A DNA stretch of 64,000 bases from Actinomycetota bacterium (GTDB taxonomy: Bacteria; Actinomycetota; CADDZG01; JAHWKV01; JAOPZY01): NCBI GenBank assembly GCA_035765775.1, contig DASTWV010000024.1, positions 1-64,000 of the forward strand. Reading direction: 5' to 3'. Of the stretch, positions 50,178 to 57,795 are shown in pieces. Made by a program: the position numbers and the translations under genes. Positions within the stretch are counted from its first letter, which is position 1; each line of letters opens with the position of its first letter. The notes under the pieces were generated by a model. It saw only the letters and a list, made by a program, of their open reading frames with translations, was not told where the DNA came from and searched no databases.

Positions 50178-51338
50178 CTACCCGACCTCGGCCCCGGCCC
50201 GGCGGGTGACCACCATCGCCGCCAGGAACGAGATGGCGAGCGCCGCCAGGAGGACGTCGTCCAGGGTCCCTGTCGGGTGCCCCACCGGCTGGGCGGCGGG
50301 CACCGGGCGGGACGGCGTCGCGGCGTCGGCCTGACCGGGATTGACGGCGGCCCGGGCCGGGGCGGCGGCCGGGCGGGGGAGCGGGATGGCGGGCAGCGGG
50401 GTGGGCGTGATGGTGTCGGTGGCCTGCGCCTCCAGGGTGCCCAGGTTGGTGAAGCCCCAGTTGTACAGGGCCTCGGAGTCCTTGTAGCCCGCCGGCGTGT
50501 GCGCCCCCAGCACCACCGCCAGGAGCGTCTGCCCGTCCCGGGTGACCTCGCTGACGAGGGCGCTGCCGGACTCGGAGGTGTACCCGGTCTTCACGCCGAT
50601 GGTGCCCGGGAACTGCGCCAGCATCTTGTTGTGGTTGGTGAGCAGGTGGGCGCCGCCGCCCCACACGAGGACGTGCTGGCGGGTGGCCACGATCTGGGCG
50701 AAGAGCGGGTAGCGCATGGCCTCCATGGTGAGCAGGGCCAGGTCCCGGGCGGTGGACTGGTGCCCGGGAGCGTCGAGCCCGTGCGGGTTCACGAAGGTGC
50801 TCCCGGTGGCCCCGGCGGTGGCGGCGTCACTGTTCATCAGGCCTACGAAGCCCGCCACCGTGCCGTCTGGGCTGAGGGTGTGGGCCAGGGCCAGGGCCAT
50901 GTCATTGCCCGAGACCATCAGCAGCCCCCAGAGCATGTCGCCGACCGTCATGGTCGTCCCCGCCGGCGGGCCGAGCTCCGACCCGCCCACGTTGACCGCG
51001 TCGTTGGTGACCGTCCCCACCGCGCCCACGTTGGCGCGGCGCAGGACGGTGAGCGCGGTGGCGATCTTCGTGAGGCTGGCGGGCGCCCGGGCGACGGTGT
51101 CGTCCTGCGACCACAACACCTTGCCGTTGGTAGGGTCCACCAGGATGCCCGATGCCACCCCCAGCGGCGCTGGCAGGGGGTTCGCATCCGGGCCTGGGAG
51201 GGGGGAAGGGGCCGCCGAGGGCGCCGCAGCGGTGGCGGCAACCGGCAGCAGGAGGCTCGTTGCGCCGAGGATCAGTGCTGCCATCAGAATGGTGACGGCC
51301 GCCGGTAGCCGGCGGCGCTGCGGCCGAGTCCATGCCAT
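50178..51338 (-). CDS. D-alanyl-D-alanine carboxypeptidase (peptidase S11, PBP5/DacB-like)
   Basis: The 386-residue exported protein has a signal peptide (~1-39) and all penicillin-binding motifs: SLTK (Ser88, Lys91), SGN (143-145) and KTG (250-252). It trims the terminal D-Ala of stem peptides. A Pro/Ala linker and a C-terminal hydrophobic segment (~362-380) anchor it. ATG 51338 lies so close to the divergent rpiB-like gene that their starts overlap; TATCCT on the minus strand (51351-51356) may be a -10 for a nearly leaderless mRNA. Confidence 0.9.
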   Translation of the reverse strand: MAWTRPQRRRLPAAVTILMAALILGATSLLLPVAATAAAPSAAPSPLPGPDANPLPAPLGVASGILVDPTNGKVLWSQDDTVARAPASLTKIATALTVLRRANVGAVGTVTNDAVNVGGSELGPPAGTTMTVGDMLWGLLMVSGNDMALALAHTLSPDGTVAGFVGLMNSDAATAGATGSTFVNPHGLDAPGHQSTARDLALLTMEAMRYPLFAQIVATRQHVLVWGGGAHLLTNHNKMLAQFPGTIGVKTGYTSESGSALVSEVTRDGQTLLAVVLGAHTPAGYKDSEALYNWGFTNLGTLEAQATDTITPTPLPAIPLPRPAAAPARAAVNPGQADAATPSRPVPAAQPVGHPTGTLDDVLLAALAISFLAAMVVTRRAGAEVG

Positions 51339-51841
51339 GGGCTGCCACGAGGATAGGGGAGGAGGGGGTGGAGATCCCGGATTTCGCGACCTCGCACGCC
51401 GGGAACCCGCGTGCGCTGGTGGGGGCCGACGACGAGGGGCTGGTCCTGGACGCCGTCGTGGACGAGCTCGGCCGCCGGGGAGTGACGGTGCAGCGGCTGC
51501 CCACGGGGGCCTGGCCCGAGGTCGCCCGCCGGGTGGGCGAGGCGGTGGCCGCGGGGGAGGCGGACCTGGGCGTGCTGGCGTGCTGGACCGGCACCGGCAC
51601 CAGCATCATGGCGAACAAGGTGCCGGGCGTGCGGGCGGCGCTGTGTTGGGAGCCCTGGATCGCCGAGGGTGCCCGGCGCTGGAACGACGCCAACGTCTTG
51701 GTGTTGAGCCTCCAGCGCACCGAGCCCGAGGTCGCCCGGGAGATCGTCGCCGCCTGGTTGGCGGTGGGCGAGCCGGACGCCGACGAGGCAGCCAACATCG
51801 CGGAGATCGCCGCCTACGAATCCCGCCGGGAGCCCGGCTAG
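51332..51841 (+). CDS. RpiB/LacAB-family isomerase paralogue
   Basis: The 169-residue protein shares the RpiB fold: RALVGADDEG at the phosphate/ring-opening end, ADLGVLACWTGTGTSIMANKVPGVRAALC and WNDANVLVLS. It keeps the catalytic Cys (Cys84 in CWTGTG) that rpiB at 752 lacks, but the usual DHAG is altered to DDEG, so the substrate may not be ribose 5-phosphate. The start is uncertain: ATG 51332 overlaps the divergent carboxypeptidase, and GTG 51368 has AGGAGG only two bases away. Its TAG overlaps the GTG of the next gene. Confidence 0.75.
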   Translation: MPWAATRIGEEGVEIPDFATSHAGNPRALVGADDEGLVLDAVVDELGRRGVTVQRLPTGAWPEVARRVGEAVAAGEADLGVLACWTGTGTSIMANKVPGVRAALCWEPWIAEGARRWNDANVLVLSLQRTEPEVAREIVAAWLAVGEPDADEAANIAEIAAYESRREPG

Positions 51842-53736
51842 TGCGCCTGGTCCGCTATGGCATCGCCGGGCTCAAGGACACCAAGGACCTGCAGGCTTCC
51901 ATCGACGCGGTGGTGGCGGGGGGCTACGCCGCCTGCGAGGTGCAGTTCGTCAAGGAGTTCACCCTGAAGGAACCCGAGGCGGAACGCCTGGGGGCGCTCG
52001 CCGCCGATGCCGGGGTGGCGCTGTCGGTGCACGCCCCCTACTTCGCCCAGCTCACCACCGAGGACCCGGAGCGCCTCACCCAGCACCTGGGGGCGCTGCA
52101 CCACTCCTGCCACCTGGCGTCGCTGATGGGGGCCCGGATCGTCGTGTGCCACCCGGGCTCGCTGTCCGGGGGCACCGATGCCCCGGTGGATCCCGACGCC
52201 GTGCACCGGCGGGTGTCGGCGGCCCTCGACAACCTCGGCCCCCGCATCGCCGGCTTCGGGGTGCGCCTTGGCCTGGAGACCCCCGGGCGCAAATCGCAGT
52301 TCGGCAGCCTGGGCGACATCGCCCTCGTGGTGGCCGAGCACCCGTTCTGCAGCCCGGTGATCGACTTCGCCCACGTGCACGCGGTGTCGGGCGGCGGGCT
52401 GGGATCGGTGGACGCTTTCCGGGCGCTGTTCGCCTTCGTGGCCCGGGAGTTCCGCCCCGAGCACCTGTGGCCGCTGCACTGCCATTTCACCGACAACCGC
52501 TTCGGCCCCGCGGGTGAGATCACCCATGTGCCCTACGGCGAGGGGTCGGTGCGCATCCGGCCCCTGGCCGAGGCGAGCTTCGACGTGGATTTCGCCATGA
52601 CGATGATCTCCGAGGAGCGCTGGGAGACCTCACACCAGGCCATCCTTGCCGACCTGCGCTCCGGGGGCCTCCCGCTGGCCGCCCCCGGGCGGGCGGGGAG
52701 CCGCTTCGCCCGGCTGCTGGAGCCGCCGGCGGCGGGAGCCGACCGCGAGCCGGCGCCGGGCGAGGTTGTCTACGCCCGGCCGTTCCTTCCCCACCCCCTG
52801 CGCCTCGAGCCGCGGGGGCCGGCGTTCATCCTACGGGAGGGACCCCGGGAGGTACGCCTCACCAACCTCGACAAGGTCTTGTTCCCCGACGATGGCTACA
52901 CCAAGGGCGACCTCATCGCCTACTACGACTCCGTCGCCCCGGTGCTCCTGCCCTTCCTGGGCGACCGGCCCGTCGTGATGCAGCGGGTGCCCGATGGCAT
53001 CTACGGCGAGGCGTTCTACGAGAAGCAGGCGCCCAAGGGGGCCCCGGAGTGGGTCCGTACCGTGCCGGTGCCGTCGGGCGGCTCCGACGGCACGCCGAAG
53101 ACGATCGACTTCGTGGTGCCCGATGGCGTCGCCACCCTGGTGTGGCTGGCCCAGATCGCCAGCGTCGAGTGCCACGCCTGGACCAGCGTGTGGCCCAACC
53201 TCGACCAGCCGGACTTCGCCGTGATCGACCTGGACCCCCACGAGCCCATCACCTTCGACGACGTCCGGGCGGTGGGGCGCCTGGTGCATACGGTGTTGGA
53301 GCGCTTCGGCCTGCGGGCGGTGCCCAAGACATCGGGTGGGTCGGGCGTGCAGATCTTCATCCCCCTCCTTCCCGGCCACACCTACCCCGAGGTGCGGGAG
53401 TTCTGCACCGGGGTCGGACGGCTCATCACCGCGGTCTACCCGGAGAAGGCCACCCTGGAGCCGTCGATCCCCCGGCGGGCGGGCAAGGTGTTCATCGACG
53501 CCAACCAGAACGCCAAGGGCAAGACGCTGGTCGCCCCGTACTCGGTGCGCCCCTATCCCGGGGCGCCGGTGTCGATGCCGTTGGCCTGGGAGGAGCTGGA
53601 GGAAGAGTTCCTGCCTGAGGAGTTCACCATCGCCACCGCCTGCGAGCGGATCGCCGGCCGGGGTGACTTCTTCGCCCCTACCCGGCTGTGGCGCCAGGAC
53701 CTGCACCCGGCGCTGGCACAGCTGCGCGGGACGTAA
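51841..53736 (+). CDS. Fusion: endonuclease IV-like TIM barrel plus LigD-type primase/polymerase domain
   Basis: The 631-residue protein has two halves. Residues ~1-275 are an AP-endonuclease-2/endonuclease IV-like TIM barrel with ordered metal-ligand candidates: His64 (SVHAPY), His104 (CHPGS), Glu146 (LETPG), Asp175 and His178 (VIDFAHVH), His215, and His229 in HVPYGEG. Residues ~330-631 are a LigD PolDom: TNLDKVLFPDDGYTKGDLIAYY, catalytic Asp463/Asp465 (VIDLDP), TSGGSGVQIF and Asp553 (VFIDANQN). No ligase, phosphoesterase or Ku domain is present, and no ku gene is in the window. Gapped-end or abasic-site repair synthesis is inferred. GTG 51841 shares one base with the stop of the RpiB-like gene. 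Confidence 0.85.
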   Translation: MRLVRYGIAGLKDTKDLQASIDAVVAGGYAACEVQFVKEFTLKEPEAERLGALAADAGVALSVHAPYFAQLTTEDPERLTQHLGALHHSCHLASLMGARIVVCHPGSLSGGTDAPVDPDAVHRRVSAALDNLGPRIAGFGVRLGLETPGRKSQFGSLGDIALVVAEHPFCSPVIDFAHVHAVSGGGLGSVDAFRALFAFVAREFRPEHLWPLHCHFTDNRFGPAGEITHVPYGEGSVRIRPLAEASFDVDFAMTMISEERWETSHQAILADLRSGGLPLAAPGRAGSRFARLLEPPAAGADREPAPGEVVYARPFLPHPLRLEPRGPAFILREGPREVRLTNLDKVLFPDDGYTKGDLIAYYDSVAPVLLPFLGDRPVVMQRVPDGIYGEAFYEKQAPKGAPEWVRTVPVPSGGSDGTPKTIDFVVPDGVATLVWLAQIASVECHAWTSVWPNLDQPDFAVIDLDPHEPITFDDVRAVGRLVHTVLERFGLRAVPKTSGGSGVQIFIPLLPGHTYPEVREFCTGVGRLITAVYPEKATLEPSIPRRAGKVFIDANQNAKGKTLVAPYSVRPYPGAPVSMPLAWEELEEEFLPEEFTIATACERIAGRGDFFAPTRLWRQDLHPALAQLRGT

Positions 53737-53822: not shown

Positions 53823-54860
53823 ATGGATCTGACCTGGCAGGCCGTGCTCGGTCGGCTGTTCACCGGCACCGCCCTGACCCAGGACGAGGCCGCGTGGGCC
53901 ATGGAGCAGATCATGGCGGGCGACACCTCGCCGCCGGTCTTCGGGGCCTTCGTCGCTGCCCTCCGGACCAAGGGGGAGACCGTAGACGAGATCGCCGGCC
54001 TGGTGGCGACCATGCGCCGGCGGGCGCTGCGCGTCCCGCTCGACCCGGCCTGGGGGCCGGTGGTGGACACCTGCGGCACCGGCGGGGACCGGGTGGGCAC
54101 CATCAACGCCTCCACCATGGCCGCGTTCGTGGTGGCCGGCGCCGGGGGGAAGGTGGCCAAGCACGGCAACCGGGCGGCCTCCAGCGCGTGCGGCTCCGCC
54201 GATCTCCTGGAGGCCCTCGGGGTCAGGATCGAGCTGGGGCCCGATGCCGTTGCGGCTTGTATCGACGAGGCGGGCATGGGGTTCTGCTTCGCCCCGGTCT
54301 TCCACCCCTCCTACCGCCACGCCGGCCCGCCCCGCCGGGAGCTCGGCGTGCCCACCGTCTTCAACTTCCTGGGGCCCCTCACCAACCCGGCGGGCGCCCG
54401 GCACCAGGCGCTCGGGGTCTCCGACCCGGCGATGGCCCCCAAGATGGCCGAGGTGCTGGCGCGCACGGGCAGCGTCCACGCCCTGGTGCTGCACGCGTGC
54501 GACGGCCTGGACGAGATCACCCTCTCCGGCCCCACCACCGTGTGGGAACTGAAGGGCGGTGCGGTGCACGAGGGCGTGATCGATCCGGCGGCGCTCGGCC
54601 TGGCCACCGTCGCCCGGGAGGCCCTGAAGGGCGGTACCCCGGCGCAGAACGCCGCGGTCACCACCGCGGTGCTGAGCGGCGAGCCGGGGCCGGCCCGGGA
54701 CTTCGCCATGGTGAACGCGGCGGCCGCGCTGGTGGCCTGCGACCGTGCTGCCGACCTGGCAGAGGGTCTGGCTCAGGCGGCGGAGTCGCTCGACTCCGGC
54801 CGGGCGGCCGGGTGCCTCACCCGCCTGCGCCAGGCGTCCAACCGCCTCGCTCCTCGCTGA
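53823..54860 (+). CDS. trpD: Anthranilate phosphoribosyltransferase
   Basis: TrpD joins anthranilate and PRPP in tryptophan synthesis. The 345-residue product has the PRPP site VVDTCGTGGDRVGTINAST, KHGNRAASSACGSADLLEALG and FNFLGPLTNPAGARHQALGV. No other trp gene is nearby. ATG 53823 follows homology. Its last 44 bases overlap the 3' end of the convergent membrane fusion gene. Confidence 0.94.
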   Translation: MDLTWQAVLGRLFTGTALTQDEAAWAMEQIMAGDTSPPVFGAFVAALRTKGETVDEIAGLVATMRRRALRVPLDPAWGPVVDTCGTGGDRVGTINASTMAAFVVAGAGGKVAKHGNRAASSACGSADLLEALGVRIELGPDAVAACIDEAGMGFCFAPVFHPSYRHAGPPRRELGVPTVFNFLGPLTNPAGARHQALGVSDPAMAPKMAEVLARTGSVHALVLHACDGLDEITLSGPTTVWELKGGAVHEGVIDPAALGLATVAREALKGGTPAQNAAVTTAVLSGEPGPARDFAMVNAAAALVACDRAADLAEGLAQAAESLDSGRAAGCLTRLRQASNRLAPR

Positions 54861-57795
54861 CCTCAAACAGGCCATCGGCCGGGCGGGGCCCCACCGGGAC
54901 CGGGGTGGGGCCCACCACCGGGGAGGGCCCCTTCGCCACCGAGCGCACCACCGCCATGGCGGCGGCCGGGAAGTGGCCGCGCCCGTCGTACACGAAATAC
55001 CGGGGGCGCCAGGCCGGCTCGTAGGCCTCGTCCGGCTCCCAGGGGTGCTCCACGGGCATCGCCCGGGAGAGCTGCTCCAGCAGCCAGCGCTGCGCCCGGC
55101 CGCCGAGCCCGTCGGCCTCGCGGCGGATGATGGTGCGCCGGGTGACGGAGAAGTTGAGGCTCAGGGTACGCACGCCGATGTCGCCCAGGTGCCGGATGGT
55201 GTGCACCATCAGCAGGTCGGTCAGCTCCTCGGGGACCGCCCGGGTGGTCCGGCGTACCTGGTCCAGCGTGTAGCCGCCGATCGCCGGGGCGGGCACGAAC
55301 TGGGCGAGGGCGGCCGGGTGGCCGTCCGGGCCGACGGCCACCGCCAGCACGATGTCGTCATCCTGCGGGTCGAAAAGCCGGCCGAGGGTCATCGAGAAGC
55401 GGCGCTCGCTGGTCGGCCGGTGGGACTCGGTCGCCAGGCCGCGCAGCTCGGACTCCACGAAGGGATCCAGGTGGGCCGGGCTCAGGAACTCGACGTGGTA
55501 CCCGGCGGCGGCGGGCCCCGCCACGCGCCGGCGGAGGTCCTCCCAGCGGGCATGGTCGAGGTCGAAGCGGTGGCAGTCCACGATCGCCTCGTCGCCGGCG
55601 TACAGCTCCCGCATCCCGGCGCAGTGGTAGATCGGCAGCCAGTCGTCCGACGCCCCCAACACCGTGACCGGCCAGCCCCGGGCGTCGGCGTAGCGGTGGA
55701 ACTCCTCCCAGGCCTGCTCCCGCTCCCAGCTCGGGCCCACCGGGTCGGGGGACACGACGCACACCCGGCCCACCACCGAGTAGGGCACGACGGTGTCGCC
55801 CGAGAAGAAGAGCTCCTTGTCGCTGCGCAGCGCGAAGTAGCTGAAGGACTCGTCGCCGTAGCGCTCCACCAGCTCGCGGGCCCGGGCGAGGCCCGAACCC
55901 GGGCGGCGCCGGGCGGCGTGCACCGGGCGGAAGATCGTCCAGGCTGCCAGGGCGACCAGCCCGCCAGCCACGGCCAGCATCACCGGGCTGAGGAAGTCGT
56001 TGAGCCGGTCGGGGAGCGCCACGGACTGGGCGCCCACCAGCCGGCCGGTCACCGCGGCGACCGCCCGCCCCAGTGGCAGCCGCGGCTTCATGACCACCTC
56101 GACCGCGACGGTGGCGGCCACGATCACCGAGATGCTGCCGGCCACTGCGGTGCGGAACGCCACCCGGAAGCCGCCCGGGGCCGCCCCACCCCGGAACGCC
56201 GCCCGTTGGCTCCCCAGGTAGGCCGCGACCGCGAGGGCGAGGATCGCCGCGGCGACCTCGACGCCCTTCGCCAGGTGCAGCACCGCCGATCCGCCCAGGA
56301 GGACGAGTGCGGTTCCCCAGGCCCGCCGCCCGCCCCGCCGGACGCCTCCCGAGAGGAAGAGCAGACCGAGGCCGGCGAGCGCCACCAGGGCAGCGGCGGC
56401 CTCCGGGACGGCAAGGGGGACGATCGTGCGCAGCCAGTGCAGGCGGACGAAGAGGGGCGGCACGGCGGCCGAGGCGAGGTTGAGCAGCCCGACCAGGGCG
56501 ATGGCCGTGGCCGCCCGGGCTCGCACCACCCGCTGGTGGCCGACCCGCTCGGTGGGCGGGGGCCAGGACGGCCCGCCCGGTAGGGAGGCGACGACCACCG
56601 GGCGGGGGCTCGCGCGCTCGGGCCGCACCGCAAGGCGCTCGAGGGCGGAGCCCGCCGGGAGCGGCTGGCGGCCGGAGACCAGGCGGACGTGCAGGTCAGA
56701 GCCCGCCTCGAGCTCGACCCACGAGGTCTGGCGCACGGACCGGAAGACGGGCAGCGGCCCCAGCCGGCTCCGGCTCTCCTCGACCGCCTCGGCACAGCAG
56801 CCGGCATTGGCGTAAAACCCGTCACCCAGGGGGGCCAGCTCGGCTAGGTGGGTATGGCCAGTGATCATGCCGGCGTAGCCCTCGCGGACGCGGGCCAGGG
56901 CATCGGCACGCGCGGCGTCGTTGCGCCCCCGGCGGGCGGAGAGGATGGCCACGTTGGACGTCGCCTCCCACACCGCGTAGGCGGCCAGGGCCATGGCGGC
57001 CACCACCAGCACCAGGTCGGCCACCACCAGGCCGCCGATGAACAGGAACGGGTTCGGCCACCGGGCGATGCGCGCCCCGATCTCGGTCTTGGACAAAAGG
57101 GTGAGCGTGAGGGGCAGCTTCAGCAGCAGGGCGACCAGGAAGGGCAGGGCCAGCCATTTCAGGTGGCGGGCGAAGCGCCGGAAGGTCAGCCGGGAGGCAA
57201 CGTAGCGGGGGAAGGCCAGGCCATCCGCCAGGTTCACCGAGTCGTCGAAGATCTCGTAGTGGGTGACCACCGGGCCCAGGTGCCGGGTGACATGCAGGCC
57301 GAAGGGGATGTCCAGGGGATCCCGGGGATCGGTGAAGGCGTTGGGCGGGTCGAGGCGGTGCCCATGCTCCACCCGGACCTTGCGGGTGCCCGATCCGGTC
57401 TCGATCTCGAGCTCGAGGGCGAGGGCCAGGTCGCAGCCGAAGGCCTCGGCGACCGCCCCGGCGGCGCCGCCGTCCCAGGCGAGGCGGGAGTCATGGTTGC
57501 CCAGCAGGTAGACCACCCGGCGCCCCGGGCCGGCGGCGAAGCTGCGCACCGCGGCGGTCAGGCGGCCCTCGTGCTGCAGGACCGCCCGGATGTCCGGGGG
57601 CGTGCCCAGGGCTAGCTCGATGATGTCGCCGTTCAAGACCAGCACGCCGGGGCCCGAGGCCCGCTCGATGGCGGCGGTGAGGTCCTCGACCGGCTGGTGG
57701 GAGCCATGCCCGCCGAGGTGCAGGTCGTTGGCCACCAGCACCCGCCCCCCAGCGGGGACGGGCAGCTCCAGGAGATCGACAACTGTGGCGCCCAT
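54817..57795 (-). CDS. Fusion: calcineurin-like phosphoesterase, membrane domain, MprF-like DUF2156 domain
   Basis: A 992-residue protein. The phosphoesterase motifs are DLH (24-26), NGD (55-57), GNHD (99-102), HGH (144-146) and GHTH (313-316), with two membrane spans (~213-236, ~251-276) inserted between HGH and GHTH. About five or six further spans follow (~428-622). Residues ~640-945 are a DUF2156/LPG_synthase_C acyltransferase-like domain: ERYGDESFSYFALRSDKELFFS, VSLNFSVTRR-like, and WRPRYFVYDG. DUF2156 domains in MprF/LysX transfer aminoacyl groups from tRNA to phosphatidylglycerol. No lysyl-tRNA synthetase is fused, unlike LysX. Joint action on membrane lipids is inferred. Confidence 0.8.
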   Translation of the reverse strand: MGATVVDLLELPVPAGGRVLVANDLHLGGHGSHQPVEDLTAAIERASGPGVLVLNGDIIELALGTPPDIRAVLQHEGRLTAAVRSFAAGPGRRVVYLLGNHDSRLAWDGGAAGAVAEAFGCDLALALELEIETGSGTRKVRVEHGHRLDPPNAFTDPRDPLDIPFGLHVTRHLGPVVTHYEIFDDSVNLADGLAFPRYVASRLTFRRFARHLKWLALPFLVALLLKLPLTLTLLSKTEIGARIARWPNPFLFIGGLVVADLVLVVAAMALAAYAVWEATSNVAILSARRGRNDAARADALARVREGYAGMITGHTHLAELAPLGDGFYANAGCCAEAVEESRSRLGPLPVFRSVRQTSWVELEAGSDLHVRLVSGRQPLPAGSALERLAVRPERASPRPVVVASLPGGPSWPPPTERVGHQRVVRARAATAIALVGLLNLASAAVPPLFVRLHWLRTIVPLAVPEAAAALVALAGLGLLFLSGGVRRGGRRAWGTALVLLGGSAVLHLAKGVEVAAAILALAVAAYLGSQRAAFRGGAAPGGFRVAFRTAVAGSISVIVAATVAVEVVMKPRLPLGRAVAAVTGRLVGAQSVALPDRLNDFLSPVMLAVAGGLVALAAWTIFRPVHAARRRPGSGLARARELVERYGDESFSYFALRSDKELFFSGDTVVPYSVVGRVCVVSPDPVGPSWEREQAWEEFHRYADARGWPVTVLGASDDWLPIYHCAGMRELYAGDEAIVDCHRFDLDHARWEDLRRRVAGPAAAGYHVEFLSPAHLDPFVESELRGLATESHRPTSERRFSMTLGRLFDPQDDDIVLAVAVGPDGHPAALAQFVPAPAIGGYTLDQVRRTTRAVPEELTDLLMVHTIRHLGDIGVRTLSLNFSVTRRTIIRREADGLGGRAQRWLLEQLSRAMPVEHPWEPDEAYEPAWRPRYFVYDGRGHFPAAAMAVVRSVAKGPSPVVGPTPVPVGPRPADGLFEVSEERGGWTPGAGG

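Follow-up and report, generated by a model that had tools for sequence, protein, structure and literature searches.

An endonuclease IV-like barrel fused to a LigD-type primase-polymerase in Actinomycetota: a possible two-step enzyme of DNA-strand repair

We describe a 631-residue protein in which an endonuclease IV-like TIM barrel is joined to a LigD-type primase-polymerase domain (PolDom). Its gene lies in a 64,000-nucleotide stretch of DNA from an Actinomycetota bacterium (positions 1 to 64,000 of contig DASTWV010000024.1, assembly GCA_035765775.1), here called the window. We propose, at a probability of roughly 45%, that the fusion is a two-step enzyme of DNA-strand repair, the barrel incising DNA or cleaning its 3′ end and the tethered polymerase filling the gap. 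The pairing of an AP-endonuclease-like barrel with a LigD-type polymerase was unfamiliar to the author of an earlier note on this sequence, and no description of it was found in the literature searched, which omits most subscription journals.

The gene and its two domains

The gene and its parts are listed in Table 1. Pfam recognizes AP_endonuc_2 (PF01261) at residues 22-262 (E 7.1e-24, 85.3 bits against a curated cut-off of 31.1) and LigD_Prim-Pol (PF21686) at residues 354-611 (whole profile, E 3.3e-83, 279.6 bits against a cut-off of 27.4). The single 631-residue frame of the earlier note is real, and the stop or frameshift between the domains that it had named as refuting was not found in the window gene. 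Both folds are predicted with confidence by AlphaFold: mean pLDDT is 86.9 over the full chain, in which the linker is floppy at 285-301, and the barrel alone reaches a pLDDT of 93.5 and a pTM of 0.91. The open frame extends upstream as far as 50716; a protein start there was rejected, as the additional stretch overlaps the rpiB-like gene in another frame and homologues begin at 51841. The TAG stop of the rpiB-like gene shares its last base with the first base of the GTG. Since no rpiB adjoins the fusion at the other loci searched, this gene is probably not part of the system.

Table 1. Features of the fusion locus in the window
Feature	Position	Strand	Details
rpiB-like gene upstream of the fusion	51332..51841	+	PF02502 match
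TIM barrel-Prim-Pol fusion gene	51841..53736	+	631 aa, GTG start, stop-free translation
Endonuclease IV-like TIM barrel, residues 1-280	51841..52680	+	Pfam, alignments, AlphaFold
Flexible linker, residues 281-333	52681..52839	+	Unconserved; partly pLDDT < 50
LigD-type primase-polymerase domain, residues 334-631	52840..53733	+	Pfam, aligned residues

Comparison of the window gene with its counterpart in genome G007 gave difference rates at codon positions 1/2/3 of 0.19/0.15/0.38 for the barrel, 0.13/0.10/0.34 for the Pol domain and 0.46/0.38/0.41 for the linker. Because the two domains differ mostly at third positions and the linker at all three, each domain is under purifying selection and the linker is not.

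The nine metal-ligand positions of endonuclease IV are filled, in order, in an alignment of the barrel family with Nfo proteins from the same genomes (H64, H104, E146, D175, H178, H213, E226, H229 and E258). E146 was placed from profile alignments, the multiple alignment being off by one at that position. The reference positions (H69, H109, E145, D179, H182, H216, D229, H231 and E261) follow PMC13113976 and the ligands known for E. coli Nfo. Eight of the nine residues are identical; the Asp229 position is held by Glu226, an invariant Glu across the barrel family, so that the ordered ligands of the earlier note stand in position but not, at this one site, in identity. In genome G185 the His216 equivalent is Gln. 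Tyr67, the counterpart of Tyr72 of endonuclease IV, is kept in all fused barrels and is Leu in the three unfused ones, and the Leu73 position is Phe68. H180 and D218 are extra invariant residues of the barrel family. The alignments thus support a putative endonuclease IV-type active site that is nearly complete. How the barrel would recognize DNA is uncertain, since the stretch at Nfo's DNA-inserting Arg37 loop differs and cannot be aligned.

Endonuclease IV is also the best global match of the barrel model by TM-score (about 0.77, rmsd about 3.3), against 0.66-0.71 and rmsd 4.0-4.5 for most sugar epimerases. In Foldseek, epimerases have E-values equal to or better than those of endonuclease IV, and the epimerase-like MJ1311 comes first. 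MJ1311 (3wqo) likewise leads the solved sequences matched by the barrel profile (2.7e-18), ahead of endonuclease IV proteins; it is, however, an archaeal protein made up of the barrel alone, carried in the PDB as "uncharacterized" and set on a long separate branch of the tree. From Nfo itself the barrel differs not only in the Glu, the loop and the extra residues noted above but in forming a clade apart, and it falls below the Nfo family cut-off (TIGR00587, 21.7 bits against 129.65).

The second domain scores above the ligD_pol threshold (TIGR02778, 239.9 bits against 214.7) and below that of the DNA ligase D model (TIGR02776, 256.6 against 373.2); Pfam finds no ligase domain (PF01068) in the protein. 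Asp463, Asp465 and Asp553, correctly placed by the earlier note, align with Asp140, Asp142 and Asp231 of Prim-PolC and are invariant among the fusion polymerases compared. The 5′-phosphate pocket (N342, K345, K355) and the ribose-sensing His445 with Arg570 are retained. The claim of a complete polymerase domain holds for the profile and the Asp triad but not for the motif-II His, which is Gln504 throughout the window's order. The same Gln occurs in a LigD of G007 and in other f2 PolDoms, and the change is therefore probably tolerated. Separate PolDom groups show this same His-to-Gln replacement in their nucleotide-binding sxH motif (window residue 504; L104, L017, L018, L020).

The best structural matches of the polymerase are a Methanocella NHEJ polymerase and Prim-PolC. 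Loop 3 (Prim-PolC residues 313-333), a C-terminal element said to define the short-gap Prim-PolC class (PMC7442782), is absent from the alignment, the protein stopping about six residues past the position of Prim-PolC residue 302. In the PolDom tree the barrel-Pol type clusters with the PolDom of the G007 LigD (85/83), apart from Prim-PolC (100/100). On these two grounds membership of Prim-PolC was rejected. The likeness to LigD (PE-Lig-Pol; Mycobacterium, Pseudomonas) lies in the Prim-PolD-type polymerase, with its Asp triad and 5′-phosphate pocket, and in the joining of that polymerase to a phosphodiesterase acting on 3′ ends, for which the barrel is a candidate. In contrast to LigD, the window protein has neither a ligase domain nor a PF13298 PE domain, and its partner is an unrelated TIM barrel.

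Distribution and genomic setting

The fusion is present in seven of the eight genomes of the window's order (the eighth is 64% complete), and in five genomes of three further families (f30, f32 and f52). A search for close relatives found them in five Actinomycetota assemblies. Across the phylum the barrel was found in 18 of 396 genomes at a limit of 1e-25, with all matches at 1e-93 or better: 12 carry the barrel-Pol arrangement, three (family f35) Pol-barrel and three (f43) the barrel alone. The barrel was not found in the 16 other genomes of the window's class. In f35, whose genomes are about 1.5 Mb, the polymerase comes first and the barrel last (L051:6193-7995 (-), L052:2691-4493 (-)). Trees in which all the fused PolDoms, f35 included, form one clade were rejected (p-AU 0.02), and for this reason two independent fusions, in opposite domain orders, are likely; a clade of the barrel-Pol type by itself was not rejected (p-AU 0.33). 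Searches of plasmids and phages yielded no fusion, the full-length query matching PolDoms only and the barrel query giving only two weak plasmid matches; none was found in viral contigs.

The stand-alone barrels of f43 (L054:6477-7322, L055:6518-7330 (-), L076:5981-6796) lie near phosphomannomutase and CcmF (cytochrome-c assembly) genes and, in two of the three, thioesterase genes. With Leu in place of the Tyr72 equivalent, they possibly have a different function.

The earlier note had envisioned a one-protein module working without Ku. This cannot be maintained: Ku is encoded in all 15 fusion genomes, the window's own included, ATP-dependent ligases occur in all 18 genomes searched (among them the 15 with the fusion), and a protein that lacks a ligase domain needs its nicks sealed in trans. 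The window's genome encodes, besides Ku, a LigC-like ligase, a PE-ligase and two further PolDoms. Its assembly, 95.8% complete, contains no ExoIII-type protein (PF03372), and its other Nfo-like protein scores below the family cut-off. At least two other Prim-Pols are encoded in most f1/f2 genomes; in the f35 genomes and G065 (four genomes, all with Ku) the fusion is the only one. Ku and a LigC-like ligase occur together without a polymerase in G089, G226 and G065. A LigD_N PE domain is absent from four of the five f30/f32/f52 fusion genomes and is encoded elsewhere in most f1/f2 genomes and in two of the three f35 genomes.

No repair genes were found among the fusion's neighbours at the loci examined, and close linkage to ku was seen at no locus. 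A phosphoribosyltransferase gene downstream is common to f1/f2 and was not found at loci outside the order. Elsewhere in f35 genomes, Ku, phosphoribosyltransferase and LigC-like ligase genes form a row (L149:4272-7687, L150:4092-7383); in the corresponding row of G089 an M54-like peptidase gene is interposed. Within the window, a 992-residue frame at 54817-57795 (-) appears by eye to combine a metallophosphoesterase with a lysylphosphatidylglycerol synthetase-like C-terminal part.

A possible role in strand repair

One could envision the following sequence of events. The barrel would hydrolyse the phosphodiester at an abasic site, or strip a blocking 3′ group (a 3′-phosphate or sugar remnant), leaving a 3′-OH. 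The polymerase, docked on the 5′-phosphate across the gap, would add a single nucleotide or a few, probably as ribonucleotides, and the nick would be sealed by an ATP-dependent ligase from another gene (LigC-like or PE-ligase). Here we infer the nuclease activity, the substrate, the order of steps and the pathway. Single-strand or base-excision repair is the pathway we prefer, given the barrel's endonuclease IV features and the missing ExoIII. In a reconstituted mycobacterial base-excision pathway, Prim-PolC and LigC1 worked best with EndoIV as the nuclease (PMC5663958), and in Bacillus subtilis Nfo and LigD act together in spore resistance (PMC4770248). The fusion would pair the same two activities as the mycobacterial set; there, in contrast, they reside in separate proteins, and the polymerase has the Loop 3 and the tree position that ours lacks. 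A dRP-lyase role for the fusion polymerase was dropped, as in B. subtilis LigD this activity sits in the ligase domain (PMC4770248).

In favour of the two-step enzyme we count the 12 genomes with barrel-Pol and three with Pol-barrel, a pairing that by the PolDom tree may have arisen twice, the TM-score to endonuclease IV, the filled ligand positions and the Tyr72 equivalent, the polymerase's catalytic Asp residues, 5′-phosphate pocket and ribose-sensing His, and the window's genome with its missing ExoIII and sub-threshold Nfo-like protein. Against it stand the barrel's place outside the Nfo clade, its different Arg37 loop, the Glu for Asp229 and, in one lineage, the Gln for His216, together with a polymerase without Loop 3 and outside the Prim-PolC clade, and neighbours that are not repair genes. 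The four genomes with Ku and no other Prim-Pol also count against it, fitting end joining equally.

Double-strand-break end joining is indeed a serious rival, since the polymerase is LigD-type and sometimes the sole one in a Ku-bearing genome. Here the barrel would replace the 3′-phosphoesterase (PE) of LigD as the cleaner of 3′ ends, and the polymerase would both fill and align the ends, acting together with Ku and a ligase that is a protein of its own. The missing Loop 3, the clustering with a LigD PolDom rather than with Prim-PolC, the genomes that pair Ku and a LigC-like ligase without a polymerase, and the lack of a PE domain in most f30/f32/f52 fusion genomes all agree with such a role. 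However, the absence of ku linkage, the PE domains encoded elsewhere in most f1/f2 and two f35 genomes, and the additional Prim-Pols of most f1/f2 genomes speak against it, and we regard it as rather unlikely. It is also worth considering that DNA is not what the barrel acts on, and that it is instead an enzyme of sugar or sugar-phosphate type or an RNA phosphodiesterase, whose part would be to supply or regulate the polymerase or to trim ribonucleotides. MJ1311 as top PDB sequence match, the Foldseek E-values of the epimerases, the unconserved Arg37-type loop and the phosphomannomutase and thioesterase genes near the unfused relatives point that way. Yet ligands for all three metals are present, fused forms keep the Tyr72 equivalent, the TM-score is higher to endonuclease IV, and a DNA polymerase is linked in both domain orders; we consider this improbable. 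That the fusion is an assembly or annotation artefact, or a decayed enzyme, is very hard to credit. The window does come from a 62-contig assembly, and two of the 15 fusion genes are broken (an in-frame TAG in G003, a frameshift in G265); but the fusion is common to independent assemblies, its catalytic Asp residues are invariant and its codon-position pattern indicates selection on both domains. In G007 the gene is split by a contig end, with the remainder opening another contig.

Returning to the two-step enzyme, it is tempting to speculate, if short of an even chance, that the fusions make up a new class of bifunctional DNA-repair enzymes, which arose by two or more fusions with the domain order reversed between them. 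In these, the 3′-OH product of the endonuclease IV-like nuclease would pass directly to the tethered primase-polymerase, and the enzyme, working with Ku and LigC-type ligases, would stand in for the classical PE-Pol-Lig LigD. The fusion bears on whether some lineages swap the PE domain of LigD for an endonuclease IV-like barrel, and offers a compact enzyme for probing substrate hand-off. EndoIV and Prim-Pol cooperate as separate proteins in mycobacteria; a natural fusion that occurs with either domain first would speak independently for a single functional unit in bacteria, made up of incision or 3′-end cleaning plus the filling of gaps with ribonucleotides. That the pairing recurs across several lineages of Actinomycetota type, and in either domain order, points to a hitherto undescribed enzyme of DNA repair, one that would process a broken strand and then fill its gap.
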